DNA of 64,000 nucleotides from Pontibacter arcticus (lineage in GTDB: Bacteria; Bacteroidota; Bacteroidia; Cytophagales; Hymenobacteraceae): NCBI RefSeq assembly GCF_003284895.1, contig NZ_QMDV01000004.1:188501-252500 (forward strand). Reading direction: 5' to 3'. The notes beneath the pieces were generated by a model, which saw only the letters and a program-made list of their open reading frames with translations, was not told the origin of the DNA and did no database searches. Position 1 is the stretch's first letter. Each line of letters starts with the position of its first letter. Shown here piece by piece: positions 1-64,000 of this stretch. Made by a program: the position numbers and the translations under genes.

Positions 1-2
1 AG

Positions 3-383
3 AAGGCCCTGCAGCCCGAAGGCGATCTGGGTGAGAAAATGAATGCTGCTTTTGAAAACGCTTTTGCGTCTGGTTATACTTCGGTGGTGATCATCGGGAG
101 CGATTGCCAGCAATTGACCCAGGAAATTATACAACAGGCTTTTGCTGCACTCGAAACCCATGACGTAGTTATTGGCCCGGCGCTGGATGGCGGTTATTAC
201 CTGCTTGGCATGAAAAAACTGCACCTGCCATTTTTCCGGAATAAGCAGTGGAGCACCGAACACGTTTTTCCGGATACGCTCAAAGATACCAGGGCGCTGC
301 ACCTGACTTATACGTTGTTGCCCATACTTTCTGACGTTGACAAAGCCGAGGATTTTGATTTTTCTGAGCTTGGGCAGGAGTGA
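3..383 (+). CDS. DUF2064/TIGR04282-type glycosyltransferase-like protein, 5' truncated
   Basis: The reading frame is open from the window edge: codons before the first internal ATG (39) encode KALQPEGDLGEKM, which fits the family, so the gene begins outside the window and only about the last 127 residues are seen (the family is usually about 200). The visible part has the GSDCQQL and GPALDGGYYLLGM motifs, typical of the nucleotide-sugar-transferase fold of TIGR04282 (rSAM/selenodomain-associated transferase 1). The GSD motif corresponds to the metal/nucleotide-binding acidic motif of that fold. The substrate is not known for the family. Family assignment is confident; the function is not. Confidence 0.85.
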   Translation, partial: KALQPEGDLGEKMNAAFENAFASGYTSVVIIGSDCQQLTQEIIQQAFAALETHDVVIGPALDGGYYLLGMKKLHLPFFRNKQWSTEHVFPDTLKDTRALHLTYTLLPILSDVDKAEDFDFSELGQE

Positions 384-496
384 TTAGTCTGTTACCAGCG
401 CTTTCCAAAGTATAAATCAGTACACTACAGGCAGGGTTGGTTCAGCATTTCAGTATAAAAAATATAGCCGTAGCTTCGCTTCTTAAGAACAAAAAA

Positions 497-1375
497 ATGA
501 CGACACGATTTTGTGGTTTTATACTTTGGGCCTGGTGCGCACTGGCAGGCTGCACCTCCCGGAACGCAGGAAGTGAGGCTGGCAATGCGCCGGCAAAAGA
601 ATACAACCAGTTAGCAACCTATTTTAACCAGACTTGGGCAAAGGCTAAACACTGGGACGATGGCCTGGCCGAAGTAGCCATATACGATGCCGAACGCATG
701 ATTTACGGAAAAAACCGGGCGTACGAATACGCGGTTCTGACGGTGAAAGAAGATTTTAACCGGGAAAATAATGTGAAGACCGATGATTATACCCGCAATG
801 ATCTTTTTGAAGTGCTGAAAGTAAACAGTTTTGCCCGTATCGAAACAGACAATTATCCTTACCATTACCTGACCTCCGTATTTATACTTCGCGACAGGCC
901 GTGGGCATTGCATAAACTCACAACTTCGTCGCAGGAATGGTGTGGCAATACGTTTAAATCGATCACAGATAAGGGCGCAAATTTCGATCTGAGCTATAAT
1001 TCATACTTCGATGGGCAAGGGACAGGCATGCATCAATTACCAAAAGAGCTGCTCGTAGAAGATCAGCTTCCGTATACCTTGCGGGCTTTAAAGTTTACCG
1101 ACAACCCGACTTTTGACGCTAATATTTTAGAAACGCAGCAAACCAACCAGGCCAAAGCGCCGGTGGTGTACAAAGCCCACATCCGAAGTATAAATGCCCA
1201 GCTTAACGAAGCGGAAGTATGGCAGGTGCAGGTACAACTCGACTCGGCGAAAGTGAACAGCTATTGGTTTGCAAAAGCCTACCCAAACCATTTGTTGCAG
1301 CAACAAACCTGGGACGGCCGCAACCTGAAACTGAAAAAAATAAGCCGCTACGCCTACTGGAAACGCGATTCATAA
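497..1375 (+). CDS. Uncharacterised lipoprotein
   Basis: About 292 residues. The frame is open from a TTG at 437, but the ATG at 497 gives a clean lipoprotein signal peptide ending in LAGC (Cys19), so I choose 497. The mature protein is predicted to be membrane-anchored in the periplasm or outer membrane. It is rich in Tyr, Trp and Asp, with motifs such as WDDGLAEVAIYDAE near the N-terminus and a WCGNTF segment in the middle. Homologues in Bacteroidota are sometimes labelled septum formation inhibitor Maf, but I see no Maf motif and treat that name as an annotation error. No operon partner is clear. Function unknown. Confidence 0.8.
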   Translation: MTTRFCGFILWAWCALAGCTSRNAGSEAGNAPAKEYNQLATYFNQTWAKAKHWDDGLAEVAIYDAERMIYGKNRAYEYAVLTVKEDFNRENNVKTDDYTRNDLFEVLKVNSFARIETDNYPYHYLTSVFILRDRPWALHKLTTSSQEWCGNTFKSITDKGANFDLSYNSYFDGQGTGMHQLPKELLVEDQLPYTLRALKFTDNPTFDANILETQQTNQAKAPVVYKAHIRSINAQLNEAEVWQVQVQLDSAKVNSYWFAKAYPNHLLQQQTWDGRNLKLKKISRYAYWKRDS

Positions 1376-1445
1376 TTGAAGTAGAGGCAACCTTACCGCG
1401 CCAAAACCAAGTATAGATTCTTGATCAAAAGAAGAAAAAAGCTAC

Positions 1446-2132
1446 ATGGCTACCACAATAGATAAAAGCACGCTCAACTTTCTGGCTGAACTGGCCGAGC
1501 ACAACGCCCGCGAATGGTTTGCAGAAAACAAAAAGCGCTACGATGCTGCCCGCCAGAATTACATTGCTTTTCTGGATGAAATGCTGCCTGGCATGGAAAA
1601 ATTTGAGCCCGTAGTACGCGACCAGAAGGGCAAAGATTTGGTGTTCAGGATTTACCGCGATGTGCGTTTCTCAACTGATAAAAGGCCATACAAAGATCAT
1701 TTTGGGGCTTATATAGCAGAAGGCGGGCGCAAGTCTATTTACCCGGGTTACTATTTACATTTGGCCGGCAACGACAAATCTTTTCTGGCAGGCGGGCTGT
1801 GGTACCCACCGGCAGAGCAGCTAAAAGCCGTGCGCCAGGAAATTGATTACAGCCTCGATGAGTTTAAGCAAATTCTGGAAGCGCCGGCGTTTAAAAAACA
1901 TTTCAAGGGCATTACCGGCGACCAGCTCAAAACAACTCCCAAAGGCTACGATAAAGACAACCCGGCCATCGAATACCTGCGCTATAAAGGCTGGAACGGT
2001 GTAATGAACCTGCCCGATAAAGTAGTGCTTCAGGCTGATTTTATGGATGTGGTATTAACTGCTTTTAGAGCGGTGAAACCCCTCAACGATTTCCTGATAC
2101 ACCCGATGCGCGACGTCGAAAAAGAGAAATAA
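1446..2132 (+). CDS. DUF2461 (TIGR02453) family protein
   Basis: 228 residues, a full-length member of the DUF2461 family. The N-terminus has the family hallmark NAREWFAENKKRYD (residues 20-33); further on are RIYRDVRFSTDKRPYKDHFGA and GYYLHL. The protein has no signal peptide and is probably cytosolic. The biochemical role of the family is not established. The gene starts 70 bases after the preceding lipoprotein gene and is followed by a hairpin that probably ends transcription. The family call is firm and the function is open. Confidence 0.9.
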   Translation: MATTIDKSTLNFLAELAEHNAREWFAENKKRYDAARQNYIAFLDEMLPGMEKFEPVVRDQKGKDLVFRIYRDVRFSTDKRPYKDHFGAYIAEGGRKSIYPGYYLHLAGNDKSFLAGGLWYPPAEQLKAVRQEIDYSLDEFKQILEAPAFKKHFKGITGDQLKTTPKGYDKDNPAIEYLRYKGWNGVMNLPDKVVLQADFMDVVLTAFRAVKPLNDFLIHPMRDVEKEK

Positions 2133-2135
2133 AAA

Positions 2136-2175
2136 AAGCCCGGTCATACTTGCTTTAAAGTATAACCAGGGTTTA
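2136..2175 (+). terminator. Hairpin terminator after the DUF2461 gene
   Basis: An imperfect 17-base stem (arms 2135-2151 and 2158-2174, three mismatches) begins right after the stop codon. Its inner part pairs CATACTT with AAGTATA, so the window-wide repeated heptamer forms the top of the stem. Confidence 0.5.
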
Positions 2176-2265
2176 TTATCGCTTCAGTTTCTCCTTCTTA
2201 AGCAAGAGCATGTTAGAAACTGGTTCGAGGTTTATACTTTGTGGATGGAGTGGTGGCAAAAGCGT

Positions 2266-2841
2266 TTAAGCCGGCTCATTTTCTTTCAGATTCCGGATCA
2301 CTTTGCAGGGGTTTCCGGCCGCAAATACATTTGCCGGAATATCCTTTGTCACCACGCTACCGGCCCCAATTACACTGCGGTCGCCGATGGATACGCCTGG
2401 GCAAATAACGGCGCTGCCGCCCACCCAAACATCTTCCCCGATGGTGATCGGCTTGGCAAACTCCAGCCCGGAAGCGCGTTCTTTGTAATCCATTGGGTGC
2501 GTAGCGGTGTAAAGCTGCACATTCGGGCCAAATAAAGTGCGGCTGCCAATGGTTACCTGCATCACATCCAGCACCACGCAGTTAAAGTTGAAAAATACCT
2601 TCTCGCCGGTTTTAATGTTGGTGCCGTAATCGCAGTAAAAAGGAGTTTGGATCCAAAGGCCGTCGCCGGCTTCCGGAATTAATTTGGCAAGTATAGCAGC
2701 ACGTTTTTCGGGTTGGTCTTCGGGTGCGTCGTTCAGGGCTTTTAAAAGCAGCCGGGCCTGCAGGCGTTCTTCCGAAAGTTGTTGATCCAGCGCATCGTAT
2801 AATTCGCCGGCAAGCATTTTTTCTTTTTCTGATCGGGCCAT
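2266..2841 (-). CDS. maa: Maltose/galactoside O-acetyltransferase-like sugar acetyltransferase
   Basis: 191 residues, normal length for the LacA/Maa family, which transfers acetyl from acetyl-CoA to a sugar hydroxyl in the cytosol. The first 55 residues match the Mac domain (EKEKMLAGELYDALDQQL). The rest is a left-handed beta-helix of hexapeptide repeats (IGEDVWVGG, ICPGVSIGD, VIGAGSVVTKDIP). The catalytic His is His115 in TATHPMD. The C-terminal GNPCKVIR motif is typical of the family. The true sugar substrate cannot be told from sequence. Monocistronic and convergent with the DUF2461 gene. Confidence 0.9.
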   Translation of the reverse strand: MARSEKEKMLAGELYDALDQQLSEERLQARLLLKALNDAPEDQPEKRAAILAKLIPEAGDGLWIQTPFYCDYGTNIKTGEKVFFNFNCVVLDVMQVTIGSRTLFGPNVQLYTATHPMDYKERASGLEFAKPITIGEDVWVGGSAVICPGVSIGDRSVIGAGSVVTKDIPANVFAAGNPCKVIRNLKENEPA

Positions 2842-3017
2842 CGTACTACATTAAAGCTAAGTGAAAGTGTTGTAGTTAAAGTATACTTTTATTTGCTGAT
2901 TTGCCAGTTCAGCAGCTCATCTCTTACTGTAAAACCAAAAATTACATATGCAATAAGTAATTAACTTTGCGCTCATCAACGTTGGTTTTAAATCAGCGCC
3001 TTAAAGTATAAAGCATC

Positions 3018-3947
3018 ATGAAAAGTATAAGAGTAAGTATAAGTATAGCTTTTGTTTTGATTCTGAGTCTGGCCGCCTGCACCAGCAAGCAGGAGCAAAC
3101 TACCCAGACAGCTGTACAGGATGTTGCAGCTTACGAAGCAAGTATAAACGCGTGGCACCAGGAGCGCGAAGCAAAGCTAAAAGCCGAAGATGGCTGGCTG
3201 GCCTTAGCCGGCTTATTCTGGCTGAACGAAGGAGAGAACACATTCGGAAGCGCTGCAGGCAATGACCTGGTTTTTCCGGAAGGCAAGATTGCGGCGCGGG
3301 CAGGTACGTTTATACTTTCCGGGAACGAAGTAACGCTGCAGGTGCACAACAAAACAGCTATTTTAGTGAACAACAAACAGGTAACCGAAGCAGTTGTTTT
3401 TGAGCGCGGCACCAAAGATGCGCCCGAAATGAAGTATGGCTCCCTGAAATGGTATGTCATCAAACGCGGTAACAAGTATGGCATCCGGCTGCGCGATACC
3501 CAAAGCGATGCGCGCCTCAACTTTAAAGGCATTACACGCTACCCCGTTACCACCGACTGGCGAGTAGAAGCCCGCCTCGAATCCGGTATTTTCCCGAAGA
3601 AGATTGCCATAACCAATGTGCTGGGGCAAACGGCCCAAGAGGAATCTCCGGGAACGCTCGTTTTTACGGTTGATGGTAAAGAGCACAGGCTGGATGCGCT
3701 TGGCGAAGGAGACTCGTATTTCGTGATTTTTGCGGATAAGACCAACGGAACCGAAACCTATGGCGCGGGCCGCTACCTGTATGCCGATAAACCGGGCGCA
3801 GATGGCAAGATCATCCTTGATTTTAACAAAGCCACCAACCCGCCCTGCGCTTTTGTTCCTTACGCCACGTGCCCGTTGCCGCCTAAACAAAACTTTTTAA
3901 CCATCCCGGTTCCTGCTGGCGAAAAAAGCTACGAAGAAGCGCATTAA
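3018..3947 (+). CDS. DUF1684 family lipoprotein
   Basis: 309 residues. The N-terminus is a lipoprotein signal ending in SLAAC (Cys21). The mature part is a full DUF1684 domain: WHQEREAKLKAEDGWLALAGLFWL near residues 46-69, PVTTDWRVEA in the middle, and the C-terminal NPPCAFVPYATCPLPP and IPVPAGEKSY block. The family is common in Bacteroidota and its function is unknown. The first ten codons carry three copies of the repeated heptamer AAGTATA, making a run of Ser-Ile pairs in the signal peptide, and a fourth copy lies just upstream. The stop overlaps by three bases the stop of the convergent HTH gene. Confidence 0.9.
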   Translation: MKSIRVSISIAFVLILSLAACTSKQEQTTQTAVQDVAAYEASINAWHQEREAKLKAEDGWLALAGLFWLNEGENTFGSAAGNDLVFPEGKIAARAGTFILSGNEVTLQVHNKTAILVNNKQVTEAVVFERGTKDAPEMKYGSLKWYVIKRGNKYGIRLRDTQSDARLNFKGITRYPVTTDWRVEARLESGIFPKKIAITNVLGQTAQEESPGTLVFTVDGKEHRLDALGEGDSYFVIFADKTNGTETYGAGRYLYADKPGADGKIILDFNKATNPPCAFVPYATCPLPPKQNFLTIPVPAGEKSYEEAH

Positions 3948-4153
3948 TCACTTTCTTTATACTCCAGCAAGTCGCTGGGTTGGCAATCGAGCACTTTACA
4001 GATAGTTTCCAGCGTACTGAAACGGATGGCTTTTGCTTTTCCTGTTTTCAGAATAGAAAGATTGGCCAGGGTTAGTCCTACTTTTTCCGAGAGCTCGTTC
4101 AGTGACATCTTGCGCTTCGCCATCATCACATCCAGATTTACAATAATCGGCAT
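3944..4153 (-). CDS. Small Cro/C1-type HTH regulator (YozG-like)
   Basis: 69 residues, essentially one helix-turn-helix domain (MSLNELSEKVGLTLANLSILKTGKAKA, then FSTLETICKVLDCQPSDLLEY). This is the YozG-like XRE subfamily, usually found beside DUF2975 membrane proteins, as here: it starts two bases after the end of the DUF2975 gene, so the two are surely co-transcribed. It probably binds DNA in the cytosol, perhaps regulating its own operon in response to the membrane partner; that link is inference. Confidence 0.9.
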   Translation of the reverse strand: MPIIVNLDVMMAKRKMSLNELSEKVGLTLANLSILKTGKAKAIRFSTLETICKVLDCQPSDLLEYKESD

Positions 4154-4155
4154 AG

Positions 4156-4695
4156 CTAAACGGTTAACTCGTTTTCAGACTGTATTTCAACGCCTTTCTT
4201 AAAGATCTGTGCGATTACGAAGATGATCCCGGCCAGGAAAAGAAATTCGCTCCCATTATCAAAGTACTGGTGCAGGTTGCCGATGTCAGGAGATTTTTTG
4301 TAAAGCCATTTGGCATAACCTTCGGCTATAATGGCCAGAATTCCGGCGCCAAGCGCCACTTCGCTGATGTTATTTATTAATTTGGAAACCATTACGTTGA
4401 AGGGTTGGCTCAGGTCGATTTTCTGGAAGATCTGGATAACCAGAAAGGCCATATACGCCTTCAGGGCCGAAAGCGCAATCAGCAGCGACATGATGGAGAT
4501 ATAGTTGTGCCTGCTAAAGTGGTGGAGCCCGGAAAGGTTTAATCCGGAGTATAGATTCTGAGAACCTGCCGGATTTATAAACAGACTGACAAAAAATGAG
4601 AAAAGGAGCGCGCCGGTTTTAATGCACAAACCAATAAATACGATCCAGAACAGGACGTTAACCGTCGTGAAAATAAAGTGTGTATTTGTCTTCAT
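4156..4695 (-). CDS. DUF2975 family membrane protein
   Basis: 179 residues with four predicted membrane segments (near residues 10-35, 62-85, 108-128 and 148-167). The arrangement, with INNISEVALGAGILAII in the second half, fits DUF2975. The gene is first in a two-gene operon with a YozG-like HTH regulator, a pairing known across Firmicutes and Bacteroidota. The function of the family is unknown; a membrane-linked input to the regulator is plausible but unproven. Confidence 0.85.
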   Translation of the reverse strand: MKTNTHFIFTTVNVLFWIVFIGLCIKTGALLFSFFVSLFINPAGSQNLYSGLNLSGLHHFSRHNYISIMSLLIALSALKAYMAFLVIQIFQKIDLSQPFNVMVSKLINNISEVALGAGILAIIAEGYAKWLYKKSPDIGNLHQYFDNGSEFLFLAGIIFVIAQIFKKGVEIQSENELTV

Positions 4696-4836
4696 CGCCT
4701 TTTGATTTAAAAGTATGAAACAAATATCAATAATATTTTATTGAAAAACAATAAATATTTATTAATTATTTAGGTTAAGGTGGATTTATACTTTTAGCTA
4801 GCGATCGGGTAAAATAGGCGGATTTATACTTTGTTT

Positions 4837-5358
4837 TTACTTTAGATGCAGCTTCATCATAATATCTGTCTGCTCATCGTTCCCTAATCTGAAAATGTGT
4901 TTATCGAACGCCACAAAGCCGTTCTTTTTGTAGAAACGGATAGCCCTATGGTTTTCTTCCCAAACACCCAACCAAACGTAACTGGCATCTTTCTGCTTTG
5001 CCACTTTTAGCGCGAATTCATAAAGCACTTGCCCGACTTTTTTCCCGTGATACTCTTTCAGAACATAGATCCTTTCTATCTCCAAAGCTTCTTTGCTTTT
5101 CAATTCTGTCTGAGCCTTGCCAAAGTTGAGTTTCAGGTAGCCTATTACGTTTGTGTTCTCTGTCGCAAAATAAAATTCGGAGTTTTCGTTGCTGAGTTCG
5201 GCAGTCAGTTTTTCAAGTGAGAAGCCTTCTTCCAGGTATTGTTTCAGGTTCTCCTCTGTGTTGCCTTCCGCAAAAGTTTCTGTAAAAGTTTGTCGGCTAA
5301 TTTCCTGTAGCCGCGCTATATCTTCGGTCGTTACTTTTTTGATTTTTATACTTTGCAT
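4837..5358 (-). CDS. GNAT family N-acetyltransferase
   Basis: 173 residues, a single GNAT domain. The acetyl-CoA-binding motif A is IERIYVLKEYHGKKVGQVLYEFA (about residues 94-116), with the pyrophosphate loop YHGKKVGQ. The C-terminal GVWEENHRAIRFYKKNGF is the usual motif B. It resembles RimI/PaiA-like enzymes that acetylate small amines or protein N-termini, but the acceptor cannot be inferred. It stands alone between AT-rich spacers. Confidence 0.9.
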   Translation of the reverse strand: MQSIKIKKVTTEDIARLQEISRQTFTETFAEGNTEENLKQYLEEGFSLEKLTAELSNENSEFYFATENTNVIGYLKLNFGKAQTELKSKEALEIERIYVLKEYHGKKVGQVLYEFALKVAKQKDASYVWLGVWEENHRAIRFYKKNGFVAFDKHIFRLGNDEQTDIMMKLHLK

Positions 5359-5446
5359 TTGGTTTTAGCGATCGCACATCTGTTAATAACTGTTTTACTA
5401 GTTAGGAGTAAATCATACAAATGCTTTTTACTTGCGTCAGGAATGT

Positions 5447-5881
5447 TTATTTAATAAATACTCCAAAATTCAATTTATTCATAATAAGTCCGCAAGAAAT
5501 CATAGGTATGAATATTATTAAAAAGGAAAGAACACGGTCAATCCAATTTATTCCTTTCTTACCTTTAGGAGGATTGTCCCATCTTGTTGCAATTATAACA
5601 TGACGGTCATTAATAAATAATGAAATTAAGTCTGCTATCCTTAGTGTAACAAGGAAAATAATGGGTGCAAAATATAATGTCTCACGAGTGTCATCGCTAA
5701 TCCTCCACAGCCCGATTATAGCTATTGATACTGTTAAACCTAAATTTTTGACAAAGAAGCTATTTTCAAATAAATTATTAAAAGGTTGATCCTTAGGTTT
5801 TAGAGAGAAACGGCCTGCAATCATGTAATAAATGTAACCAAACCCTATCAGCCCTCCGAACCACAGATTAAAATTTTCCAT
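5447..5881 (-). CDS. Uncharacterised small membrane protein, AT-rich gene
   Basis: 144 residues with four predicted membrane segments (near residues 6-22, 45-62, 68-90 and 115-135) and a basic loop (RWDNPPKGKKGINW) between the last two. I recognise no family. The gene is visibly more AT-rich than its neighbours, has none of the repeated AAGTATA heptamers, and is not clearly in an operon. Those features would suit recent acquisition but are not proof. Coding is supported by the length of the open frame and the regular hydrophobic pattern. Confidence 0.6.
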   Translation of the reverse strand: MENFNLWFGGLIGFGYIYYMIAGRFSLKPKDQPFNNLFENSFFVKNLGLTVSIAIIGLWRISDDTRETLYFAPIIFLVTLRIADLISLFINDRHVIIATRWDNPPKGKKGINWIDRVLSFLIIFIPMISCGLIMNKLNFGVFIK

Positions 5882-5970
5882 TTTGATTTAATTTCTAAAT
5901 ATCATCCTGTGAGTGCAACTATAAAAAATGCTCAGATAGCTTTACATAGCTGGTTATTAATGAGATGAAA

Positions 5971-7302
5971 CTATCCGACTTCCAGATTAGCGTGCCGGCG
6001 ACGCTGGCGGTATAGGTATAATTCCACGACGAGCCACAAAAGCACCAGCGTATATTCCAGGGCAACCAGGCTAAGGTCTTCTTTGTAAACCGGCGTGTTG
6101 TAGGCGGCATAGGTAAGTATAGCCAAACCCGACCAGACGATGGCAAACCGGAAATGGCTGGCTGCTGTTAAGGCTACGAGCGTGGTAATGTACCAGGGAT
6201 GCACCGTTGTGGCCAGCAACAGGTAGATCACGAGCGCGGCAGCCATAAAGCCCATCAGGCGGCGCAACGAACCGATCTGTTTTACAGTAGCCATCGCGCA
6301 TACAAGTACCAGCGTGCCCACCGATAAAAGCGGTCCGATCAAAGCAATCTGGTTATAGCCCCACACCCGGAAACCAAGCCAGCGCAGCAGGTAATACAAA
6401 CTGGCATTAAACTCGAACTTCCGGAAGTATAAATCGATGCTTTGAAAGATATTTTGCAGCACCTCTGTGGTAACCAAAGGTATAAATGTAAGCAGTACGG
6501 TAAGCCCGAGCGGCAGCGCAAAAAGTATAAACCTGCGCCAGCCCAACTTGCGTAGCACGACGGGCAGGAAAAGAAGCGGCAATAATTTTACACTCACAGC
6601 CAGCCCGAACATAACGCCCGCCCACACCAAACGGTTGTAGTATAAAAATAGCAGCGCAGCCAGCAGGAAAAAGATCATCAGTCCCTCGAAGTGCAGGTTG
6701 CCGGTAATCTCCAGTATAACCAGCGGGTTCAGGGCGTAGAACAAAACGTTTTTTTCGGGGAGGGCCATTTTGCGGAGCAGGCGTAACAGCAAAAGTATAC
6801 TTCCGGTTTCGGCCATTAGAAGTATAGCCCGTATAGCGATTATACTTTCATGCAGGCTTTCCGGAGAAAGCTTTACGCTGAGCCAGAAAATAGCCTGCGC
6901 CACTGGTGGGTACACGCTAAAGTATACCTGGGAGTTTAGTTGCTGGTAAAGCGTTTCGGAAATTCCGGGCAGGGCAGGAGCGCCCTCCGCTACAAACCAC
7001 GAAGGCAAGTATAAATACGGGTTAAAGCCGGCAGTCAGCAAACGCCCATCCCAGATAAAACGGAAATAATCATCAGATAAAGCAGGCGTAGCAAAAAGCA
7101 GCAATAATCTGAAAAGTATAGCTGCAGCCAGCCCGTGCCACAGGTTTATTTTCAGGTTGATGTAATATACATACACCCCGAAAACGAAAGTATAAAGTAG
7201 CAGCAGTTGCGTAAAATCGGTGCGCGGCGTGTAATATCCTAAGCCCACATAGGCTACTCCTGATAGGCCAAGTAAAAGGTAAGCAACGGTGTTTCTGGTC
7301 AT
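5971..7302 (-). CDS. GT-C/GT87-like membrane glycosyltransferase
   Basis: 443 residues from the ATG at 7302. The frame is open 45 bases further, but that start would overlap the upstream gene, whereas 7302 leaves one base after its stop. The protein is almost all membrane helices, about ten to twelve. The N-terminal loop has the acidic motif LSDDYFRFIWDGR followed by GFNPYLY, as in polyprenol-phosphate-sugar-dependent mannosyltransferases (GT-C fold). It likely moves a sugar from a lipid-phosphate donor to a glycolipid outside the cytosol. The two upstream genes could supply the donor and acceptor. Family level is firm; substrate unknown. Confidence 0.8.
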   Translation of the reverse strand: MTRNTVAYLLLGLSGVAYVGLGYYTPRTDFTQLLLLYTFVFGVYVYYINLKINLWHGLAAAILFRLLLLFATPALSDDYFRFIWDGRLLTAGFNPYLYLPSWFVAEGAPALPGISETLYQQLNSQVYFSVYPPVAQAIFWLSVKLSPESLHESIIAIRAILLMAETGSILLLLRLLRKMALPEKNVLFYALNPLVILEITGNLHFEGLMIFFLLAALLFLYYNRLVWAGVMFGLAVSVKLLPLLFLPVVLRKLGWRRFILFALPLGLTVLLTFIPLVTTEVLQNIFQSIDLYFRKFEFNASLYYLLRWLGFRVWGYNQIALIGPLLSVGTLVLVCAMATVKQIGSLRRLMGFMAAALVIYLLLATTVHPWYITTLVALTAASHFRFAIVWSGLAILTYAAYNTPVYKEDLSLVALEYTLVLLWLVVELYLYRQRRRHANLEVG

Positions 7303-7303
7303 G

Positions 7304-8779
7304 TTAGCGCCTGCTATGCAAAACCGAATATAGAAAAACAGAACCAAACCCCAGCATCAGCAGCACATGGAATGGCAGCAAGCCAAAATCATGTAGCTCG
7401 AAAGCTGCCACAATGCCAAATAAAAAATATACCGCCAAAATTCCTTCCAGTATGGTTAACAGGTTTATACTTTTCAGGAAGTAAGCTTGTTTCCGCCAAC
7501 TGTCTGCTGCCTGCACAATGTTATACTTGGGCGTCCGGATGAAAGGGGATTTTTTGCCGATATACCCTTCCAGTACCGCCAGGCTATTGTGCAGCGAAAG
7601 CCCCATCGACATACTCAGAAACAGCAGAAAAAGAGGAATAAATTGCCAGGTGGTTTTGCTTGCATCGTGGGTTTTCTGGTACAGGGCAGTCCAGTAAAAA
7701 AAGCTGAGCGAAAGCAAACTGATTAACAGCACCGCGCCTATTTTAAACAGAAACTGAAGGTCGGGTAGCTCCGCTTTTATGTACAGCAAAGGCACACTCA
7801 GCAAGGCCGTTACAAGCACGCAAATAAAAATGCCGCTGTTCAGCAAATGGAAAACTGCATGCGCTTTGGTACCGGCCGGTTTATCTGATTTCCATACTTG
7901 CCTGAGGTGTTTGCGGGCGGTTTCGGCGGCGCCTTTTGCCCATCGGAACTGTTGCGATTTTAAAGCGCCCATCGCTACGGGCAGTTCAGAAGGTGTTTCG
8001 ACCTGTTCGAGGTATACAAACTGCCAGTTTTTTAATTGGGCGCGGTAGCTCAGATCCAGGTCTTCGGTTAAGGTATCGGCTTGCCAGCCACCGGCATCGG
8101 TTATACAGGTTTTGCGCCAAACGCCGGCCGTACCGTTAAAATTAATAAAATGCCCGGCGCTGTTGCGGCCGCTTTGCTCCACGGTAAAATGCGCATCCAA
8201 CCCGAAAGCCTGCAACCTGGTAAGCAGCGAATAATTTTGGTTGAGATGGCCCCAGTGGGTTTGCACCACACCAATTTTAGTTGAAGTAAAAGCAGGAATG
8301 GTACGTTTCAGGAAATCGGGGCCAGGAACAAAATCAGCATCAAAAATAGCAATGAAATCGCCGGTAGCGCGTGCCAGCCCATATTGCAAAGCGCCTGCTT
8401 TAAAACCACTTCGCCGCTCGCGCCGGATGTGCTGAAAATCAATGCCGCTGCCTTCGTAAGTTTTTAGCCTGGTCTGTATCAGCTCGGTGGTATCGTCCGT
8501 AGAGTCGTCTAATATCTGAACCTGGAGCAGGTGGCGTGGGTAATCAAAAGCAGCTATAGCATCCAGCAGGCGTTCTACAACATAACGCTCGTTGTAAACC
8601 GGCAACTGCACCGTAACGGCGGGCCATACATCGGGTGCTGGGTATGCTTTTATACGTTGTGCGGAGCGTTTGCAGAGCCAGTAAAGTATGGTTAAGTGCA
8701 GCTGCACCAGGCTGTAGCCGAAAATAAAGGCCAGACAGATGCCATAAATAACCAGAACAAGACCGCTGAGTAAGTGCAT
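7304..8779 (-). CDS. Processive-type GT2 membrane glycosyltransferase (cellulose-synthase-like)
   Basis: 491 residues. A membrane segment near residues 5-27 is followed by a GT2 domain with DDSTDD at 91-96, DAD at 147-149, the TED catalytic base region at 238-240 and QQFRW at 276-280: the D,D,D,QxxRW signature of cellulose synthase, CsbB and ceramide glucosyltransferase-like enzymes. The C-terminus has about four more membrane helices. It probably uses a nucleotide sugar in the cytosol to build a glycan or glycolipid at the inner membrane. It lies in a tight operon, 8 bases after the upstream GT2 gene and nearly touching the downstream GT-C gene. Confidence 0.9.
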   Translation of the reverse strand: MHLLSGLVLVIYGICLAFIFGYSLVQLHLTILYWLCKRSAQRIKAYPAPDVWPAVTVQLPVYNERYVVERLLDAIAAFDYPRHLLQVQILDDSTDDTTELIQTRLKTYEGSGIDFQHIRRERRSGFKAGALQYGLARATGDFIAIFDADFVPGPDFLKRTIPAFTSTKIGVVQTHWGHLNQNYSLLTRLQAFGLDAHFTVEQSGRNSAGHFINFNGTAGVWRKTCITDAGGWQADTLTEDLDLSYRAQLKNWQFVYLEQVETPSELPVAMGALKSQQFRWAKGAAETARKHLRQVWKSDKPAGTKAHAVFHLLNSGIFICVLVTALLSVPLLYIKAELPDLQFLFKIGAVLLISLLSLSFFYWTALYQKTHDASKTTWQFIPLFLLFLSMSMGLSLHNSLAVLEGYIGKKSPFIRTPKYNIVQAADSWRKQAYFLKSINLLTILEGILAVYFLFGIVAAFELHDFGLLPFHVLLMLGFGSVFLYSVLHSRR

Positions 8780-8787
8780 AGGTGCTG

Positions 8788-9480
8788 TTACAGGTATTTA
8801 AAAATGGTAAGTATAATTTTATAGCCAGCCATCACCGAGCCTTTCACTGTACCTGATACTTTAGACAAACCGATCCGCTTCCGATAAGTTACAGGCACTT
8901 CGGTATAGGGCACCCTTTTTTTAGCTGCTTTCACTTGCATTTCCACTGTCCAGCCGTAGGTGCGGTCGCGCATGTTCAGGGCCAGCAGCGCGTCTGTTCT
9001 TATTGCCCGGAAAGGCCCGAGGTCGGTATAGGTTACGCCGTAAAACCATCGCATTAAGGTAGTAGCCAGCCAGTTTCCGAAGATCTGTTGTGGCATCATA
9101 GCGCCTGCCTCACGGTTACCAAGCGCCCTCGAACCTATCACCATATCGGCTTTCCCGGCAAGTATGGGAGCCAGCAGTAAGGGCATTTCTTCGGGATGAT
9201 CAGAAAAATCGCCATCCAGAAAAACAATAATATCCGGACGCTCCTCTTCAGGTTTTGCAGTGGCATACGCAATTCCGCACAGGCAGGCATTCCCGTAACC
9301 GGGCGTGGGCTCGTGTAACACAGTGGCGCCGGCAGCGCTGGCCACCTTAGCCGTTTGGTCTGATGAATTGTTATTGACAACGATGATATCCGCTACCAAA
9401 CCGGCAGGGATAGCAGCTACTACCTGAGCGATGGATTGTTCTTCGTTGTAAGCCGGGATGATGACGTTGATACAGGGCAT
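8788..9480 (-). CDS. GT2 dolichyl/polyprenyl-phosphate sugar synthase-like protein
   Basis: 230 residues from the ATG at 9480; the longer frame begins with a TTG at 9501 and adds nothing recognisable. The domain starts at once with CINVIIPAYNEEQSI, then VNNNSSDQT, FLDGDFSDHPEEM (metal-binding DxD) and RAIRTDALL, matching DPM1/DPG synthase-like GT2 proteins that charge a polyprenyl phosphate with a hexose. No membrane anchor is clear. As first gene of the operon it may make the lipid-linked donor that the terminal GT-C enzyme needs; that pathway order is inference. Confidence 0.85.
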   Translation of the reverse strand: MPCINVIIPAYNEEQSIAQVVAAIPAGLVADIIVVNNNSSDQTAKVASAAGATVLHEPTPGYGNACLCGIAYATAKPEEERPDIIVFLDGDFSDHPEEMPLLLAPILAGKADMVIGSRALGNREAGAMMPQQIFGNWLATTLMRWFYGVTYTDLGPFRAIRTDALLALNMRDRTYGWTVEMQVKAAKKRVPYTEVPVTYRKRIGLSKVSGTVKGSVMAGYKIILTIFKYL

Positions 9481-9550
9481 GTAAGCAGTTATAACCGCCA
9501 ATTTACAGAAAGGATTTTGAGTAGCCGTTCATACTTTAAAAGAAGCTGCT

Positions 9551-9594
9551 TAAAAAAAGCGTAGCCCCGTTTTGCAGAAGCTACGCTTTTATAC
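9551..9594 (-). terminator. Terminator after the 9.6 kb lipoprotein gene
   Basis: An 11-base perfect stem (9555-9565 with 9580-9590, AAAAGCGTAGC) with A and T runs on its outer sides lies between the leftward lipoprotein gene and the glycosyltransferase operon. It is therefore an expected end for the former. Confidence 0.8.
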
Positions 9595-9610
9595 TTTGTG
9601 AACCTGGTTT

Positions 9611-10171
9611 TTACTGGCGGTCCAGGAATTTATTGTCGTTAAACTCTATCCGGATAAAGCCTTCTGCCTTCGTGAAAAGTATACGCTTTACATCGGTCGG
9701 GTTAGTGGCGGCAGGCGTCAGCTCAAATACATTCTGATACACTTTGCCATTTACTTCAGCCTCTATGGTTGGCTTTGTTTCGTCCAGGTCGTATGTTTTG
9801 CGGTTTTCTACAGCCAGACCTATAGACAGGTCGTCCGGCCTTTTCAGGACGTAGGTAGCAAGTCCGGGGCTTTTACGTTTCACATCCTCGATGGTAACTG
9901 TTACCTGGGTATCCAGGTTTTTGTAGCATTCATCATCAATGGAAGTGTCTTTGCCGGGCACGTTTCCCCCTCTCACGCTTGTACGGATGTATTTGATCAC
10001 ATTGGCCTGCTCATCTACAAACCGGATAGTGTCTTTCGGGTCTTCATACACCAGCCATTCTGCATCGGCTTCAGTTACTTCGGTTACGGTCGGGCTGTCG
10101 CAATCTTCGCAGGAACTCAAAAAAAGGCTGCAAACTAACAAGCTTCCGAGGGTGAGGGATTTTACTTTCAT
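9611..10171 (-). CDS. Uncharacterised lipoprotein
   Basis: 186 residues. The N-terminus is a lipoprotein signal peptide with lipobox LSSC followed by an acidic stretch (EDCDSPTVTEVTEADAEWL), so the protein is probably lipid-anchored. The rest is mixed beta-type sequence with no family I recognise. It stands alone, bounded downstream by a strong terminator. The gene is supported by its signal peptide, codon pattern and terminator; the function is unknown. Confidence 0.7.
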   Translation of the reverse strand: MKVKSLTLGSLLVCSLFLSSCEDCDSPTVTEVTEADAEWLVYEDPKDTIRFVDEQANVIKYIRTSVRGGNVPGKDTSIDDECYKNLDTQVTVTIEDVKRKSPGLATYVLKRPDDLSIGLAVENRKTYDLDETKPTIEAEVNGKVYQNVFELTPAATNPTDVKRILFTKAEGFIRIEFNDNKFLDRQ

Positions 10172-10410
10172 GATGAAATTAAGTATGATTTTAAAGGTAA
10201 TCTGATTTTAGCTTTTCTGAACAAGCGACTAATATACGATTAATAGACCCATTTAACAGGGCAAAGGGTTGCATGTGCTTTTCAGTTGAAACGAAAAATG
10301 GTAGCTGAAACGTATGGCTTTGCCGGTGTAGCTGCACATACTCATCATTTAAATCTTTTGTTTTATAGCTGTTTTTCATGTGCAGGCTGGGCCTAACTTA
10401 TGCGCTTAAC
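10172..10410. other. Spacer without a convincing gene
   Basis: Part of a 567-base gap. A 62-codon frame here (10191-10379, leftward) has no start signal, domain or hydrophobic pattern and I do not support it. I see no RNA gene. Confidence 0.5.
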
Positions 10411-10455
10411 CACCCCGCCTGCGGCACCCCTCCTTGAAAAAAGGAGGGGAGTTAG
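10411..10455. repeat. REP-like palindrome (CACCCCGCC type)
   Basis: The sequence CACCCCGCCTGCGGC is followed by a perfect 9-base hairpin, CCCCTCCTT (10427-10435) and AAGGAGGGG (10441-10449), with a GAAAA loop. It resembles a repetitive palindrome common in intergenic DNA of Bacteroidota. It is related in core (CCCCTCC) to the two larger palindromes at 42.7 and 48.4 kb but is not the same element. Confidence 0.6.
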
Positions 10456-10536
10456 CTCAACCAAAGCCACCTGCTCTTAATTGAAGTATACTTTATACTT
10501 TCTGTAAAGTATAAATCGGCTGATCAAATAAAAAAC

Positions 10537-10722
10537 TTATCCCAGTTTTTCCATGAAGCGCCTTGTGAATTTCCGGTGCGCAGCAGCCGTAAGGCAGGAA
10601 ATTAACACAGCGCTGAAGGGGAAAACGAGTCCCAGCGGACTTGGAGCGAAAAAGCCAACTATGCAACTAGTACTAGTCAAGTTAAAGAAGACATAAGCTA
10701 CGCCAGCAAAAACAAAACACAT
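10537..10722 (-). CDS. Possible small membrane peptide (weak call)
   Basis: 61 codons beginning 16 bases after the ceramidase-like gene on the same strand. The product would have two hydrophobic stretches (residues 3-20 and 26-46) and a basic tail (RKFTRRFMEKLG), the layout of a small membrane protein. No homologue is known to me and no ribosome-binding site is evident, so chance is a real alternative. Confidence 0.3.
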   Translation of the reverse strand: MCFVFAGVAYVFFNLTSTSCIVGFFAPSPLGLVFPFSAVLISCLTAAAHRKFTRRFMEKLG

Positions 10723-10738
10723 CTTTCAACTTAAGTAT

Positions 10739-12121: not shown

Positions 12122-12271
12122 ACGGGGGCCGGTTCCTAAAAGCAGCCTGTCTTTTTCTTTCGGGTTTGGTCAGGAAACCTTAAATTTGGTTTTGCTAACT
12201 TACTACAATCTTTTAAAACACGATAACAGGGGCGAAGGCAGCAGCGCGGAAAGTATACTTCTATTACCATC

Positions 12272-12304: not shown

Positions 12305-14572
12305 ATGGAACCGAATCTTGACCATTTATTAAAAATTGCCTCCGAGCTTACTATCACCATTAAGCAGGTAGAAGCCACCGCAGCCCTGCTGGCAGAAGGC
12401 GCGACCGTACCTTTTATTTCGCGTTACCGCAAAGAAGCCACCGGCTCTTTAGACGAAGTTCAGATCGCTGCCATCCGCGACAGACTGGAGCAGCTGCAGG
12501 AACTGGACAAGCGCCGCGAAAGTATACTGAAGTCGATCAAAGACCAGGAAAAACTTACGCCGGAACTGGAAGCCCGCATTATGGCCGCCGAAACCATGGC
12601 CGTACTCGAAGATATTTACCTGCCTTACAAACCTAAGCGCCGCACCAAAGCCACCATCGCCCGCGAAAAAGGACTGGAGCCATTAGCCCAACGTCTGTTT
12701 GAGCAGGAGAACATGGATGTAACCACCGAAGCCGCTGCTTTTATTTCAGAAGAAAAAGAAGTAAAAACAACCGAAGAAGCCCTGGCCGGTGCCCGCGACA
12801 TCATGGCTGAATGGATAAACGAGAATGCCGATGCACGGGCAAGTATGCGCCAGCTGTTCGAGAAGAAAGGCGTGTTCAAGAGTCGCGTGATGATGGGCAA
12901 GGAAGAAGAAGGCCAGAAGTTCAGGGATTATTTTGAGTGGGAAGAGCCGATCGAAAAAGCACCTTCGCACCGTGTGCTGGCCATGCGCCGCGGCGAAACC
13001 GAAATGATTCTGATGCTGAACGCGCAACCCGAAGAAGTAGAAGCACTCGCCAAGCTCGAAGGGATGTTCGTGAAAGGCAACAACGCGGCTTCGGAGCAGG
13101 TACGCCTGGCTGCCCGCGATTGCTACAAACGCATGCTGAAGCTTAGTATGGAAACTGAAGTGCGCCTGAGCTCGAAGAAGCGTGCTGACGAAGAAGCTAT
13201 TCGTGTTTTCGCTGATAACCTGCGCCAGTTGCTGCTTTCCTCGCCGCTTGGCCAGAAAACGATGATGGCCCTTGACCCGGGTTTCAGAACGGGTTGCAAA
13301 CTGGTGGTGCTCGATAAACAAGGCAAACTGCTGCACAACGAAACCATTTACCCTCACACCGGTGCCGGCAAAGCGCAGGAAGCAGGCCAGAACATAAAGT
13401 ACCTCGTTACCAAGTATGAAATTGAAGCCATCGCGATTGGCAACGGCACAGCCGGCCGTGAAACGGAAGCATTTGTAAATACGCTTAACCTGCCGAAAAC
13501 AGTAGCGGTGGTGATGGTAAACGAAAGCGGCGCATCTATTTACTCGGCTTCGGAAGTGGCCCGTGAAGAATTTCCGGACCAGGATGTTACCGTTCGTGGC
13601 TCTGTTTCGATTGGCCGACGCCTGATGGACCCGCTCGCAGAACTGGTAAAGATCGACCCGAAAAGTATAGGTGTAGGCCAGTACCAGCACGACGTAGACC
13701 AGACTGCTTTAAAGCATACCCTGGATGATGTGGTAATGAGCTGCGTAAATGCCGTTGGAGTGGAAGTGAATACAGCCAGCAAGCAACTACTGACCTACGT
13801 TTCCGGTTTAGGGCCTGCGTTGGCGCAGAACATTGTGGATTACCGTAACCAGAACGGCCCGTTCAAGACGCGCACCGAACTGAAAAAAGTAGCCCGTTTA
13901 GGCGATAAGGCGTTCGAGCAGGCAGCAGGTTTCCTGCGCATCCGCTATGCTAAAAATCCACTCGATGCCTCTGCCGTTCACCCCGAAAGTTACCCGGTTG
14001 TAGAGCAAATGGCGAAAGATCTCGGCGTAACTGTGCGCGATTTGATGCAGAAAGAAGAACTCCGCAAGCAGATCAACCTGAAAAATTACGTAACCGATAA
14101 AGTGGGTTTGCCTACGCTGCAGGATATTTTAAGCGAGCTTGCCAAGCCAGGCCGCGACCCGCGCGAGACGTTTGAGGCATTTAGCTTTACCGAAGGCGTA
14201 AACGACATCAAAGACCTGCGCGAAGGCATGAAACTGCCGGGCATCATTACCAACATTACTGCCTTTGGTGCTTTTGTGGATGTAGGTGTGCACCAGGACG
14301 GCCTTGTGCACGTGAGCCATCTATCAGACCGCTTCGTAACCAACGCGCACGATGTAGTGAAAGTAGGGCAGAAGGTAGAAGTAACGGTGATGGAAGTGGA
14401 TGTAAACCGCAAACGCATCTCCCTAAGTATGAAAGGCGAGCCGAATGCAGCCAAACCAGCTGCAAGACCAGCTACCGGAAATACAGCTAAAAAGGATAAT
14501 GCTAAAAAAGAGGAAGAGCCGATGGATGATTTCCAGGCGAAACTGGCCAAGCTGAAAGGCATGTTCAAGTAA
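12305..14572 (+). CDS. tex: Tex family RNA-binding transcriptional accessory protein
   Basis: 755 residues, the usual Tex length. In order: the helical N-terminal domain (VPFISRYRKEATGSLDE, residues 35-51), the YqgF/RNase H-like domain beginning MALDPGFRTGCKLVVLDK near 321, the helix-hairpin-helix region (LTYVSGLGPALAQNIVDYRNQNGPF) near 500, and a C-terminal S1 domain (GIITNITAFGAFVDVGVHQDGLVHVSHLS) near 640-710, then a Lys/Glu-rich tail. Tex binds nucleic acid and affects transcription in the cytosol; its precise job is debated. Monocistronic, with a strong terminator. Confidence 0.97.
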   Translation: MEPNLDHLLKIASELTITIKQVEATAALLAEGATVPFISRYRKEATGSLDEVQIAAIRDRLEQLQELDKRRESILKSIKDQEKLTPELEARIMAAETMAVLEDIYLPYKPKRRTKATIAREKGLEPLAQRLFEQENMDVTTEAAAFISEEKEVKTTEEALAGARDIMAEWINENADARASMRQLFEKKGVFKSRVMMGKEEEGQKFRDYFEWEEPIEKAPSHRVLAMRRGETEMILMLNAQPEEVEALAKLEGMFVKGNNAASEQVRLAARDCYKRMLKLSMETEVRLSSKKRADEEAIRVFADNLRQLLLSSPLGQKTMMALDPGFRTGCKLVVLDKQGKLLHNETIYPHTGAGKAQEAGQNIKYLVTKYEIEAIAIGNGTAGRETEAFVNTLNLPKTVAVVMVNESGASIYSASEVAREEFPDQDVTVRGSVSIGRRLMDPLAELVKIDPKSIGVGQYQHDVDQTALKHTLDDVVMSCVNAVGVEVNTASKQLLTYVSGLGPALAQNIVDYRNQNGPFKTRTELKKVARLGDKAFEQAAGFLRIRYAKNPLDASAVHPESYPVVEQMAKDLGVTVRDLMQKEELRKQINLKNYVTDKVGLPTLQDILSELAKPGRDPRETFEAFSFTEGVNDIKDLREGMKLPGIITNITAFGAFVDVGVHQDGLVHVSHLSDRFVTNAHDVVKVGQKVEVTVMEVDVNRKRISLSMKGEPNAAKPAARPATGNTAKKDNAKKEEEPMDDFQAKLAKLKGMFK

Positions 14573-60622: not shown

Positions 60623-60658
60623 AGTGTTATTTTGTTAGCGAGTGTTAATGTACTGATG

Positions 60659-61029: not shown

Positions 61030-61034
61030 ACAAA

Positions 61035-61064: not shown

Positions 61065-61086
61065 CAGCAAAGTATAAACTTATAAA

Positions 61087-61698: not shown

Positions 61699-61788
61699 GT
61701 TCGGTTTCTTTTATAACGTCCGCTAAAACTGATGTTTTGCTTTCATTTCCGGATTTGTATTTCAGGTTTCAAGAAAGCTTCTCAAAAA

Positions 61789-61937
61789 AAGCTGTTTAGC
61801 GTTTTCAATTACAGCGCCTTAACCCGCCGTTGTTGGTGTTTTCACCCACAACTATACATTAAACTTGAAGTGCTTGCTGGTGAAAACACGCAGCAAGGGC
61901 CGCAAAAATTTATTTAGTTAAAAACGCTAAACAGCTT
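61789..61937. mobile_element. MITE-like element with 17-base terminal inverted repeats
   Basis: The ends AAGCTGTTTAGCGTTTT (61789-61805) and AAAACGCTAAACAGCTT (61921-61937) are perfect inverse copies. Inside lie two further inverted hairpins, TTGTTGGTGTTTTCACC (61830-61846) and CTTGCTGGTGAAAACACGC (61873-61891). No open frame. The size (149 bases) and the terminal repeats look like a MITE; no target duplication was recognised. Confidence 0.65.
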
Positions 61938-61981
61938 CAAAGTATAAAATTTAAGGATTTATACTTTGAAAAGTATCTGGA

Positions 61982-63445
61982 TTAACCTTTAACCGGAATT
62001 TGTTTTAAAGTATCGAGCAGGTAATCCCAGTATTTCTGAACCGAGCTTATCTGTACTTTTTCATCCGGAGAGTGTGCGCCCTGTATGTTTGGCCCAAACG
62101 AGATCATCTCCATGGCAGGGTAGTTTCCCCCTAAAATGCCGCACTCCAGGCCGGCGTGGCAGGCATTAACGTGAGGCGCTTCGTTAAATTTCTGGCGGTA
62201 CAGGTCGCTCATAATTTTAACGATGGCAGCATCTGGTTTTGGCGTCCAGCCCGGGTAAGAACCACTGTTGCTAACCGTAGCGCCTGTCAGTTCGAAAGCG
62301 CTTTGCACGGCCATCGCCAGGTCATTTTTCTCTGAATCTACGGAGCTGCGGGTCAGGCATTGCATCAGGTAAGTGCCGTCTTTTACAAGTACACGTGCCA
62401 GGTTATTGCTCGTCTGCACCAGGCCTTCAATGGCCGGACTCATGCGGTGAATGCCGTTCGGACACGTATAAATGGCCCGGATAAAAGTAGCCTGCAGCGC
62501 AGTTGGCAGAACTTCTGTTGGCGTTTCGGCTTCTTCCAGTGTTACCTGTATGTTTGGGTCTGTGATGTTGTATTCCGCCTGTAGTATTTGCGTTTGCTCG
62601 GTAATATAAGTTTTAAAAGCGACCTCAGTGGCAGCCGGAACAGCTACTATTGCAAACGACTCGCGCGGAATGGCATTGCGTAAACTGCCGCCATCTATAG
62701 AGCCAATGCGTGCGTTATGCGCCGTGACAGCACCAGCCAGCAGGCGGTTCATCAGTTTGTTAGCATTGCCGCGCCCCAGGTGGATATCCATGCCCGAGTG
62801 GCCACCGGTTAAGCCGGTTATACTTAATTTGTAGCTTTTATGGTCGCCGCTCAGGGTGTCGGAAGTATACTTTCCGGTTGCGTTTATATCGATGCCGCCG
62901 GCGCACCCGATAGTCAGTTCGCGGTCGTCCTCGGTATCCAGATTCAACATGATGCTGGCATCCAGCAAACCGCCTTTCAGGTTTAAGGCACCTGTCATAC
63001 CAGTTTCCTCATCAATCGTGAAAAGAGCTTCCAGGGGAGGATGCGCAATATCAGTTGAGGCTAGTAGCGCCATAATAGTCGCTACGCCAATGCCATTATC
63101 AGCGCCCAGCGTAGTGCCTTTTGCTTTTACCCAATCGCCATCAATATACATCTGGATGCCCTGTGTATTGAAATCGAATGTGGTGTCGGCATTTTTCTGA
63201 TGCACCATATCCAGGTGGCTTTGCAGCGCAACGGTTTCGCGGTTTTCCATGCCGGGGCTGGCCGGTTTTTTAATGATCACGTTGCCGATCTCATCTACCT
63301 GCGTGTGTAAGCCCAGCTTTTCGCCGAAGCTTTTCATAAACTGAATAACACGTTCTTCTTTTTTAGAGGGGCGCGGTACTTCGTTCAGGTCGGCAAAATT
63401 GCTCCATAAAGCTTTGGGTTCTAACGCTCTTACTTCGTTGCTCAT
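61982..63445 (-). CDS. pepD: Aminoacyl-histidine dipeptidase
   Basis: 487 residues, the length of PepD (carnosinase, M20C). The di-zinc residues are visible: QSHLDMVHQKN, TLGADNGIGVA, the base IDEETGMTGA and the C-terminal CHAGLECG near 428. It hydrolyses Xaa-His dipeptides and others in the cytosol. No signal peptide. The M20 dimerisation domain lies in the middle (GGHSGMDIHLGRGNAN). Single gene, with several heptamer copies in the upstream gap. Confidence 0.95.
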   Translation of the reverse strand: MSNEVRALEPKALWSNFADLNEVPRPSKKEERVIQFMKSFGEKLGLHTQVDEIGNVIIKKPASPGMENRETVALQSHLDMVHQKNADTTFDFNTQGIQMYIDGDWVKAKGTTLGADNGIGVATIMALLASTDIAHPPLEALFTIDEETGMTGALNLKGGLLDASIMLNLDTEDDRELTIGCAGGIDINATGKYTSDTLSGDHKSYKLSITGLTGGHSGMDIHLGRGNANKLMNRLLAGAVTAHNARIGSIDGGSLRNAIPRESFAIVAVPAATEVAFKTYITEQTQILQAEYNITDPNIQVTLEEAETPTEVLPTALQATFIRAIYTCPNGIHRMSPAIEGLVQTSNNLARVLVKDGTYLMQCLTRSSVDSEKNDLAMAVQSAFELTGATVSNSGSYPGWTPKPDAAIVKIMSDLYRQKFNEAPHVNACHAGLECGILGGNYPAMEMISFGPNIQGAHSPDEKVQISSVQKYWDYLLDTLKQIPVKG

Positions 63446-63866
63446 AATCAGATAGGTTGGTGTTGTAAAGTATAAACTGCGTATATCAACTCCGGATGTA
63501 AAACCAGAAGTATAACTGCGCCGCTAATATAAGGCTTACTTTCTTAGCATCTAAAATCCGATCATCCATCAAGTATAAATCAAGCTCTTAAAGTATAAAT
63601 AAATACCAGCGCCAGGCCATACTTTAAAGCTATTTTCAGGAGCATGCTTAATCTTTAAAGTAACTTAAGTTAACTGTATTTTATAAAGGCAAAATTTTTA
63701 AATCTAAACATAGGATTATATTAATAGATAAAAAAGTGAAATATAATAAGATTTGATGTTCACTTTTTAGCAGCTGAATCGTACTTATGGAGATTTATGT
63801 GCAAAAAAGCTGAAAGGCCTTGCACGCTTCCCGAAGTCCCGTAAATCTTAACCGAAACAAATTTAT
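63446..63866. other. Spacer rich in the AAGTATA heptamer
   Basis: 421 bases, with at least four exact copies in the first 160, then an AT-rich stretch up to the next start. No gene or RNA. Confidence 0.5.
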
Positions 63867-64000
63867 ATGTATAAAGACATACCTTCGTCTGCTGCCCTTA
63901 ACCTGCAAGAAAATACCGCCGCCATTACGAGCACTGACAGTGTTTCACCTATGAAAATCGCCCGTACAGGGCAAGAGACAGCCACCAGTTTTTTGCAGCA
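63867..64000 (+). CDS. Start of an uncharacterised gene, 3' truncated
   Basis: The ATG at 63867 opens a frame that stays open to the window end (44 codons seen: MYKDIPSSAALNLQENTAAI, then TSTDSVSPMKIARTGQETAT). It is hydrophilic, without signal peptide, too short to place in a family. The gene, if real, continues outside the window. Confidence 0.45.
   Translation, partial: MYKDIPSSAALNLQENTAAITSTDSVSPMKIARTGQETATSFLQ

Follow-up and report, generated by a model that had tools for sequence, protein, structure and literature searches.

AAGTATR, a candidate DNA-uptake-sequence-like word with dialects in the genus Pontibacter

INTRODUCTION

To our knowledge, uptake sequences are known from the Neisseriaceae and the Pasteurellaceae, both of which possess type IV pili. 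Here we analyse a heptamer, AAGTATA (TATACTT on the opposite strand), that is repeated throughout a 64-kb stretch of a Pontibacter genome (positions 188501–252500 of contig C4 of the source genome G000, 3.77 Mb; hereafter the window). Its properties suggest a DNA-uptake-sequence-like word kept by natural transformation, in a genus of the phylum Bacteroidota.

The DNA uptake sequences (DUS) of Neisseriaceae occur in thousands of copies and form clade dialects with a conserved core; one genome contains two dialects, and some relatives have no obvious one (PMC3630211). The Pontibacter word resembles them in copy number, in its clade dialects with a common core, in the existence of two-dialect genomes and in its word-poor relatives; it differs in that the word itself is unrelated, pilus ATPase matches are weak and partial, and the phylum is another one. 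The uptake signal sequences (USS) of Pasteurellaceae fall into two types by subclade and arise by mutation rather than insertion; three species have competence-gene defects, judged to be recent, and USS are still dense in all but one of them (PMC1626085). Pontibacter likewise shows subclade word types, a mutational origin of sites and some species with broken competence genes, with a word different from that of Haemophilus influenzae and a density of 2.3/kb genome-wide.

The first-pass annotation of the window had likened the heptamer to cyanobacterial HIP1 in kind, not in sequence. HIP1 is a palindrome, GCGATCGC, tied to orphan methyltransferases (PMC4390886). The comparison is fair: both words recur throughout the genome, and both have variants in some species. 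GCGATCGC itself is present at only 0.003–0.008/kb in Pontibacter, and no shared methyltransferase was found in three families. Within the Bacteroidota, transformation of Riemerella anatipestifer needs ComEC, DprA and a helix-hairpin-helix protein, and the part of that report at hand mentions no uptake sequence (PMC8459023). All 50 Pontibacter genomes surveyed here have matches to these three proteins; unlike in Riemerella, the DUF5689 component is not common to the motif-bearing species. Among the matches listed in the open-licence literature, nothing described the word, transformation in Pontibacter or a Bacteroidota uptake sequence, and the one paper naming both Pontibacter and natural transformation used the terms in unrelated places.

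RESULTS

A heptamer over-represented throughout the genome

The window contains 190 copies of the heptamer, 119 on the plus strand (AAGTATA) and 71 on the minus strand (read as TATACTT), whereas Markov models of order 0 to 5 predict 12.1, 9.5, 16.4, 37.5, 100.0 and 170.5. The order-5 value nearly reaches the observed count; we regard this comparison, which the first-pass annotation had named as a refuting condition, as uninformative, because the hexamers behind it owe their abundance to the motif. Its other refuting condition, no excess in the rest of the genome, does not hold: there are 8,844 copies as compared with 429 of the reversed word of the same composition, evenly divided between the two orientations (4,403 and 4,441). 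A decamer, AAAGTATAAA, occurs 2,020 times genome-wide versus 12 for its control. Heptamer density is 2.97/kb in the window and ranges from 1.6 to 2.95/kb in sampled stretches of contigs C1–C5, as opposed to 0.23/kb (166 copies in 724 kb) in samples of eight motif-poor congeners. The short word is thus strongly over-represented genome-wide on both strands, as expected of DUS/USS.

The claims made from the window alone were largely borne out. The 20 exact copies reported for the first 5.4 kb were recovered on recounting (11 + 9). Density was high between genes, as stated, at 9.0/kb versus 1.75/kb within them, taking as genes the longest open reading frames (ORFs) of at least 60 codons. The word was said to occur on both strands, in genes and in gaps, and the 93 genic copies comprise 53 sense and 40 antisense ones; the variant AAGTATG/CATACTT, described as common, is enriched, with 29 + 25 copies. 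The two genic readings named, Ser-Ile (xxA-AGT-ATA, 28/93) and Ile-Leu (xxT-ATA-CTT, 22/93), are the commonest, but other frames occur as well. The extended consensus in the window is A-AAGTATR-A-(A/T)-T-T.

One contig of G000 departs from this pattern. C6 (loci L247–L250) is 139,335 bases long with a repeat unit of 74.3 kb, the same 60-mer being found at offsets 1000 and 75337, and is probably a circular plasmid assembled nearly twice. It has 38 heptamers in 80 kb, near background, the reversed word being present 22 times.

Dialects across the genus

Fifty Pontibacter genomes were surveyed, with 20 to 304 kb sampled per genome. AAGTATA copies per genome range from 770 to 11,818, and many seemingly empty species carry a different word. 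The dialects have a TATA core in common. Three are carried by more than one species: A, AAGTATR; B, AGGTATAG, in a clade of 12 species; and C, AACTATAG. Two variants are confined to single species, GGTATAA/GGTATAC in G036 and CTATATA/TATATAA in G069, both seen with more sequence. The 20 kb around tex, a gene of the window, already separates the groups: AGGTATA ranks first in 11 species of the B clade and second in the remaining one, five species have AACTATA or ACTATAG at the top, and A and C words are both present in G027 and G032.

The 50 species were assigned to A (21, including the faded G022, described below, and the mixed G032), B (12), C (6, including G027), single-species variants (2) and a weak mixed state (1, G007), eight having no clear dialect (G002, G033, G024, G064, G025, G028, G068 and G026). 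Two of the eight, G064 and G025, together show a weak excess of AAAGTATA (23 vs 5.5). At least nine changes of state are needed on the tex tree, with G007 uncounted and G022 counted as A; this tree has 25 of its 49 inner branches well supported, and its bootstrap had not settled. Flank preferences of the dialect words are graded, and palindromic forms are in excess: sites within AAGTATACTT number 134 vs 40 expected in dialect A, while AGGTATACCT reaches 48 vs 12 in B and AACTATAGTT 170 vs 13.5 in C.

No comparable excess of AAAGTATAAA was seen in 22 genomes from other families of the order (top ratio to control 1.8), and a screen of loci outside Pontibacter, namely those of at least 12 kb among 80 tex loci, gave no word resembling the Pontibacter words, with several slight excesses. 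Among these loci, two from Rufibacter (L011, L012) have a weak excess of a CTGTTTT/AAACAGAA-type word (12–15 vs 1.1–2.2), which may be a similar phenomenon outside Pontibacter. Locus L053 has many strongly repeated octamers, such as GAGAAAGC (26 vs 0.8), and L081 and L084 have ACCGTGAC (14 vs 0.7) and CCTCGTCC (12 vs 0.7), respectively, with expectations of 0.7–0.9; these are perhaps local repeats or repeat arrays.

Point-change origin and in-place conversion of sites

The first-pass annotation had proposed looking for conservation at orthologous positions. Counting in both directions, the word of a species' own dialect was kept above letter-permuted words in all 12 same-dialect sister pairs, for example 18/39 vs 48/225 in G023/G034 and 28/47 vs 120/500 in G010/G015; counts for the words of other dialects were small and mixed. 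The motif-poor pair G064/G025 was likewise highly conserved, with small numbers (14/21). Sites of the A clade are kept in the distant G000 (79/151 vs 175/850 for the control) and are not conserved in the motif-poor G024 (7/125 vs 65/897) and G033 (13/70 vs 78/397) or in G069 (0/106 vs 21/695), the difference being slight in G064 (19/143 vs 91/864). Controls within the word were divided: AAGTAT followed by a purine was kept in 345/569 cases and by a pyrimidine in 7/26, but the first-base control disagreed, AGTATA being kept after A in 227/386 cases and after T in 32/50.

Opposite 947 AAGTATA sites of seven A species, B species have AGGTATA at 154 and AAGTATA itself at 37, the rate of A-to-G change in other contexts (three species) being 3730/19937. 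Opposite C species, 105 sites of G071 and G006 face AACTATA 12 times and the unchanged word nine times (G-to-C control 258/6323), and 382 sites of mixed species face them 35 and 52 times (control 569/13974); the pairs in these switching counts overlap and the counts are not independent events. Between 13 A species and G024, G064, G033, G002 and G069, sites differ by substitution and not by insertion, gaps being found in 21 of 551 motif alignments and in 190 of 3773 controls. Sites originate through point changes, and a change of dialect converts them where they stand.

Active and relic layers

For comparison between species, genes were taken as the longest ORFs of at least 80 codons; the Fisher p values given here and below treat sites as independent. 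Active words are concentrated between genes: 4.92 vs 1.70/kb in coding sequence for A (18 species pooled, ratio 2.89), 4.25 vs 1.47/kb for B (11 species, ratio 2.88) and 8.32 vs 2.31/kb for C (5 species, ratio 3.61), with a high value of 4.24 in the dialect-A species G062. The superseded A word in C species is nearly flat (0.61 vs 0.49/kb, ratio 1.23). Both layers can be seen within single genomes. G027, with 2.07 vs 1.95/kb for the A word (ratio 1.06) and 4.45 vs 1.49/kb for the C word, is clearly in mid-switch; G065 (1.23 vs 1.20/kb for A and 7.66 vs 2.27/kb for C, p 0.046) probably is, and G032, whose apparent switch in the opposite direction is not significant (p 0.20), perhaps is.

Competence genes and a faded species

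The competence core of DUS/USS systems is present, ComEC, a ComEA-like protein (about 315 residues, helix-hairpin-helix) and DprA each being matched in 50/50 species, broken copies included. Stops within the DprA and ComEC matches are confined to two species, G022 and G009. All three genes of G022 have stops and frame changes, and their compared neighbours are intact. The AAGTATA profile of this species is that of a relic: 31 intergenic and 143 coding sites in 160 kb, a ratio of 1.19, differing from the 20 other A species with p 4.7e-10. Its density, 996/Mb, is the lowest for dialect A in its clade (others 1,237–2,310), and no replacement dialect word was seen. In G009, stops and a frame change interrupt comEC and dprA; a single stop lies in the comEA-like alignment, leaving a frame of 304 residues as compared with 327–331 in B relatives. 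The ComEC frame of G018 is short, at 561 residues, with no stops in the matched part.

Searches for uptake machinery, receptor and methyltransferase

PF00437, the pilus assembly ATPase and the only pilus family searched, gave weak and partial matches in the 50 genomes, three of them barely above the cut-off in frames of about 650 residues, and was rejected as the uptake motor. The neighbourhoods of the ComEC and ComEA-like genes (20 genomes each) revealed no conserved neighbour tracking the motif. A helicase beside dprA was rejected as the helix-hairpin-helix protein on inspection of its sequence. DUF5689, the family of a Riemerella transformation gene, was rejected as the specificity factor: it is found in 22/50 genomes, in two architectures (about 430 residues in 12 genomes, about 1,100–1,300 in 10), the short form being present in 2 of the 21 dialect-A species. 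At L152, L151 and L157 (G066, G011 and G070), the gene for the short form adjoins one whose product we take to be SusD-like.

Nor did any of the three adenine-methyltransferase families searched give good matches throughout the motif-bearing species, D12, C5 and others being unsearched. N6_N4 methyltransferases (PF01555) went unmatched in 19/50 species, among them many motif-rich ones; N6_Mtase (PF02384) has matches in 50/50, weak and partial in the motif-rich G006 and G061; and the Eco57I family (PF07669) has none in G022, G002 and G036. The plasmid-like contig C6 encodes a PF01555 methyltransferase.

Site arrangement was also considered. Uptake sequences of H. influenzae are spaced more evenly than random, and inverted pairs of those of Neisseria form terminators. 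Many close convergent site pairs in Pontibacter are overlapping palindromes; a terminator role was tried for such pairs and none was shown. Dialect C has an excess of spacings at 50–120 bp.

Features of the window

The following features illustrate how sites are disposed in the window.

3004..3047, plus strand: cluster of four AAGTATA (starts 3004, 3023, 3035 and 3041), spanning the start of an ORF at 3018.
2879..2888, no strand: palindromic form AAGTATACTT, two opposite-strand heptamers sharing four bases.
10484..10513, no strand: inter-ORF cluster in which TATACTT and AAGTATA come after the palindrome AAGTATACTT.
12251..12260, no strand: palindromic form AAGTATACTT upstream of tex.
12305..14572, plus strand: tex (named as in the first-pass annotation), outside the motif system; it served to anchor orthology and to build the species tree.

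The protein encoded by this tex gene is 88% identical to that of P. populi, a dialect-C species, and 87% to that of P. aquaedesilientis, which has dialect B. Two other groups of words are over-represented in the window. TCCGGA, grouped with TTCCGGAA, occurs 102 times vs 16.0 expected (both strands, order 1); its density is alike in the three dialect groups and the motif-poor species (0.33–0.46/kb), and it is therefore a separate word unconnected to the dialects. The second group comprises AACCTGA, ACCTGC and CAGGTA; AACCTGA occurs 41 times vs 6.8 and has a density of 0.28–0.50/kb in the same four groups.

DISCUSSION

We propose, with a probability of roughly 0.6, that AAGTATR, best in the context A-AAGTATA-A-A/T-T-T, is a DNA-uptake-sequence-like word kept by natural transformation. 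That this would amount to a DUS system outside the Proteobacteria, without a type IV pilus, with at least five dialects in one genus and species in mid-switch, is a further step, to which we give only slightly better than even odds. The set of properties appears closer to that of uptake sequences than to those of HIP1, Chi or mutation bias; membership in DUS/USS, whose defining feature is a bias in uptake, is not claimed, and the search of the pilus ATPase family gave no convincing motor. A putative surface or periplasmic receptor with a graded preference for the word would favour the uptake of word-bearing DNA, which might then recombine by the ComEC/DprA route, so that alleles with a better word would spread by molecular drive. 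Should the receptor change its specificity, the genome would follow site by site, first between genes and later in coding sequence; should transformation be lost, intergenic sites would fade first.

Several observations weigh against this proposal. Fading after loss of competence genes is seen in G022, which is a single case, and not in G009, whose dialect looks active in spite of the broken genes (ratio 1.98 vs 2.88, p 0.19); that fewer disruptions are visible in G009 would fit a more recent loss, though this is a guess. Even for G022, the alignable sites of the A clade show ordinary conservation (75/210 vs 240/1389), and G020, outside its clade and without stops in these genes, is sparser (823 vs 996/Mb). 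Conversely, G061 and G006, with dense dialect A and no stops in comEC, the comEA-like gene or dprA, have flat profiles, each in a single 20-kb sample (1.03, 37 coding and 7 intergenic sites, p 5e-4; and 1.38, 35 coding and 9 intergenic, p 0.005); our confidence is lowered because of them. G019 has a reduced ratio as well (1.93, p 0.017), and G031, of dialect A, lacks the shared A-clade sites (11/118 vs 121/772). Eight motif-poor species have whole ComEC, ComEA-like and DprA frames, and these genes alone therefore do not predict the word; under the uptake proposal, those species would have lost specificity rather than transformation. To this must be added the weak pilus matches, the lack of a receptor gene in the neighbourhoods and DUF5689 genes examined, a spacing that is not even but mildly clustered in G000, A and B, and the possibility that the plasmid-like C6 has merely been acquired recently.

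Three other explanations deserve consideration. The word could mark sites of an abundant chromosomal DNA-binding protein, involved in nucleoid structure, recombination or repair, with direct selection at thousands of positions. A protein-binding site, one of the options raised by the first-pass annotation, does fit the graded flanks, and the dyad-like motif with its palindromic forms, the conservation of orthologous sites, the near-background count on the plasmid-like contig and the flat profiles of G061 and G006 are all compatible with such a protein. Strand skew, which the first-pass annotation had also wished to see checked, gives a weak excess of AAGTATA on the G-rich strand (364/644 copies in 13 clear-skew regions, 3 of 16 regions having been excluded for low skew). 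Chi-like recombination signals have a strong leading-strand orientation, unlike the slight bias observed here, and whole-genome swaps of dialect within one genus, together with near absence from eight species, are hard to reconcile with an essential signal; the profile of G022 would also go unexplained. We consider such a protein an unlikely source of the pattern.

A HIP1-like system, in which an orphan methyltransferase reads the word, which is maintained and multiplied by selection or by methylation-dependent mismatch repair, would account for dialects by shifts in enzyme target. HIP1 variant words have been tied to methyltransferases (PMC4390886), AAGTATR, with its single degenerate position, looks like a methyltransferase site, and its palindromic forms are enriched as reported above. 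Yet each of the three families searched is missing or weak in some motif-bearing species, flank preferences are graded and the G022 profile is unaccounted for, which makes this explanation, and with it the earlier suggestion of a methylation site, rather improbable. Neutral, context-dependent mutation creating the word would be in keeping with the intergenic excess, the large variation between species and the origin of sites by point change; a gain bias alone would neither raise conservation at orthologous positions nor convert old sites to a new dialect in place, and the plasmid-like contig is near background. For these reasons pure mutational bias, likewise among the options first raised, is disfavoured and seems very improbable.

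If the uptake proposal is true, an independent case in the Bacteroidota would show that self-recognizing transformation evolves repeatedly, and would point to a novel sequence-reading receptor. A genome-wide change of the self-recognition code could then be traced site by site, the presence of both active and relic layers of dialect within a single genus showing how such codes turn over, and the species with broken competence genes would make the drive hypothesis directly testable.

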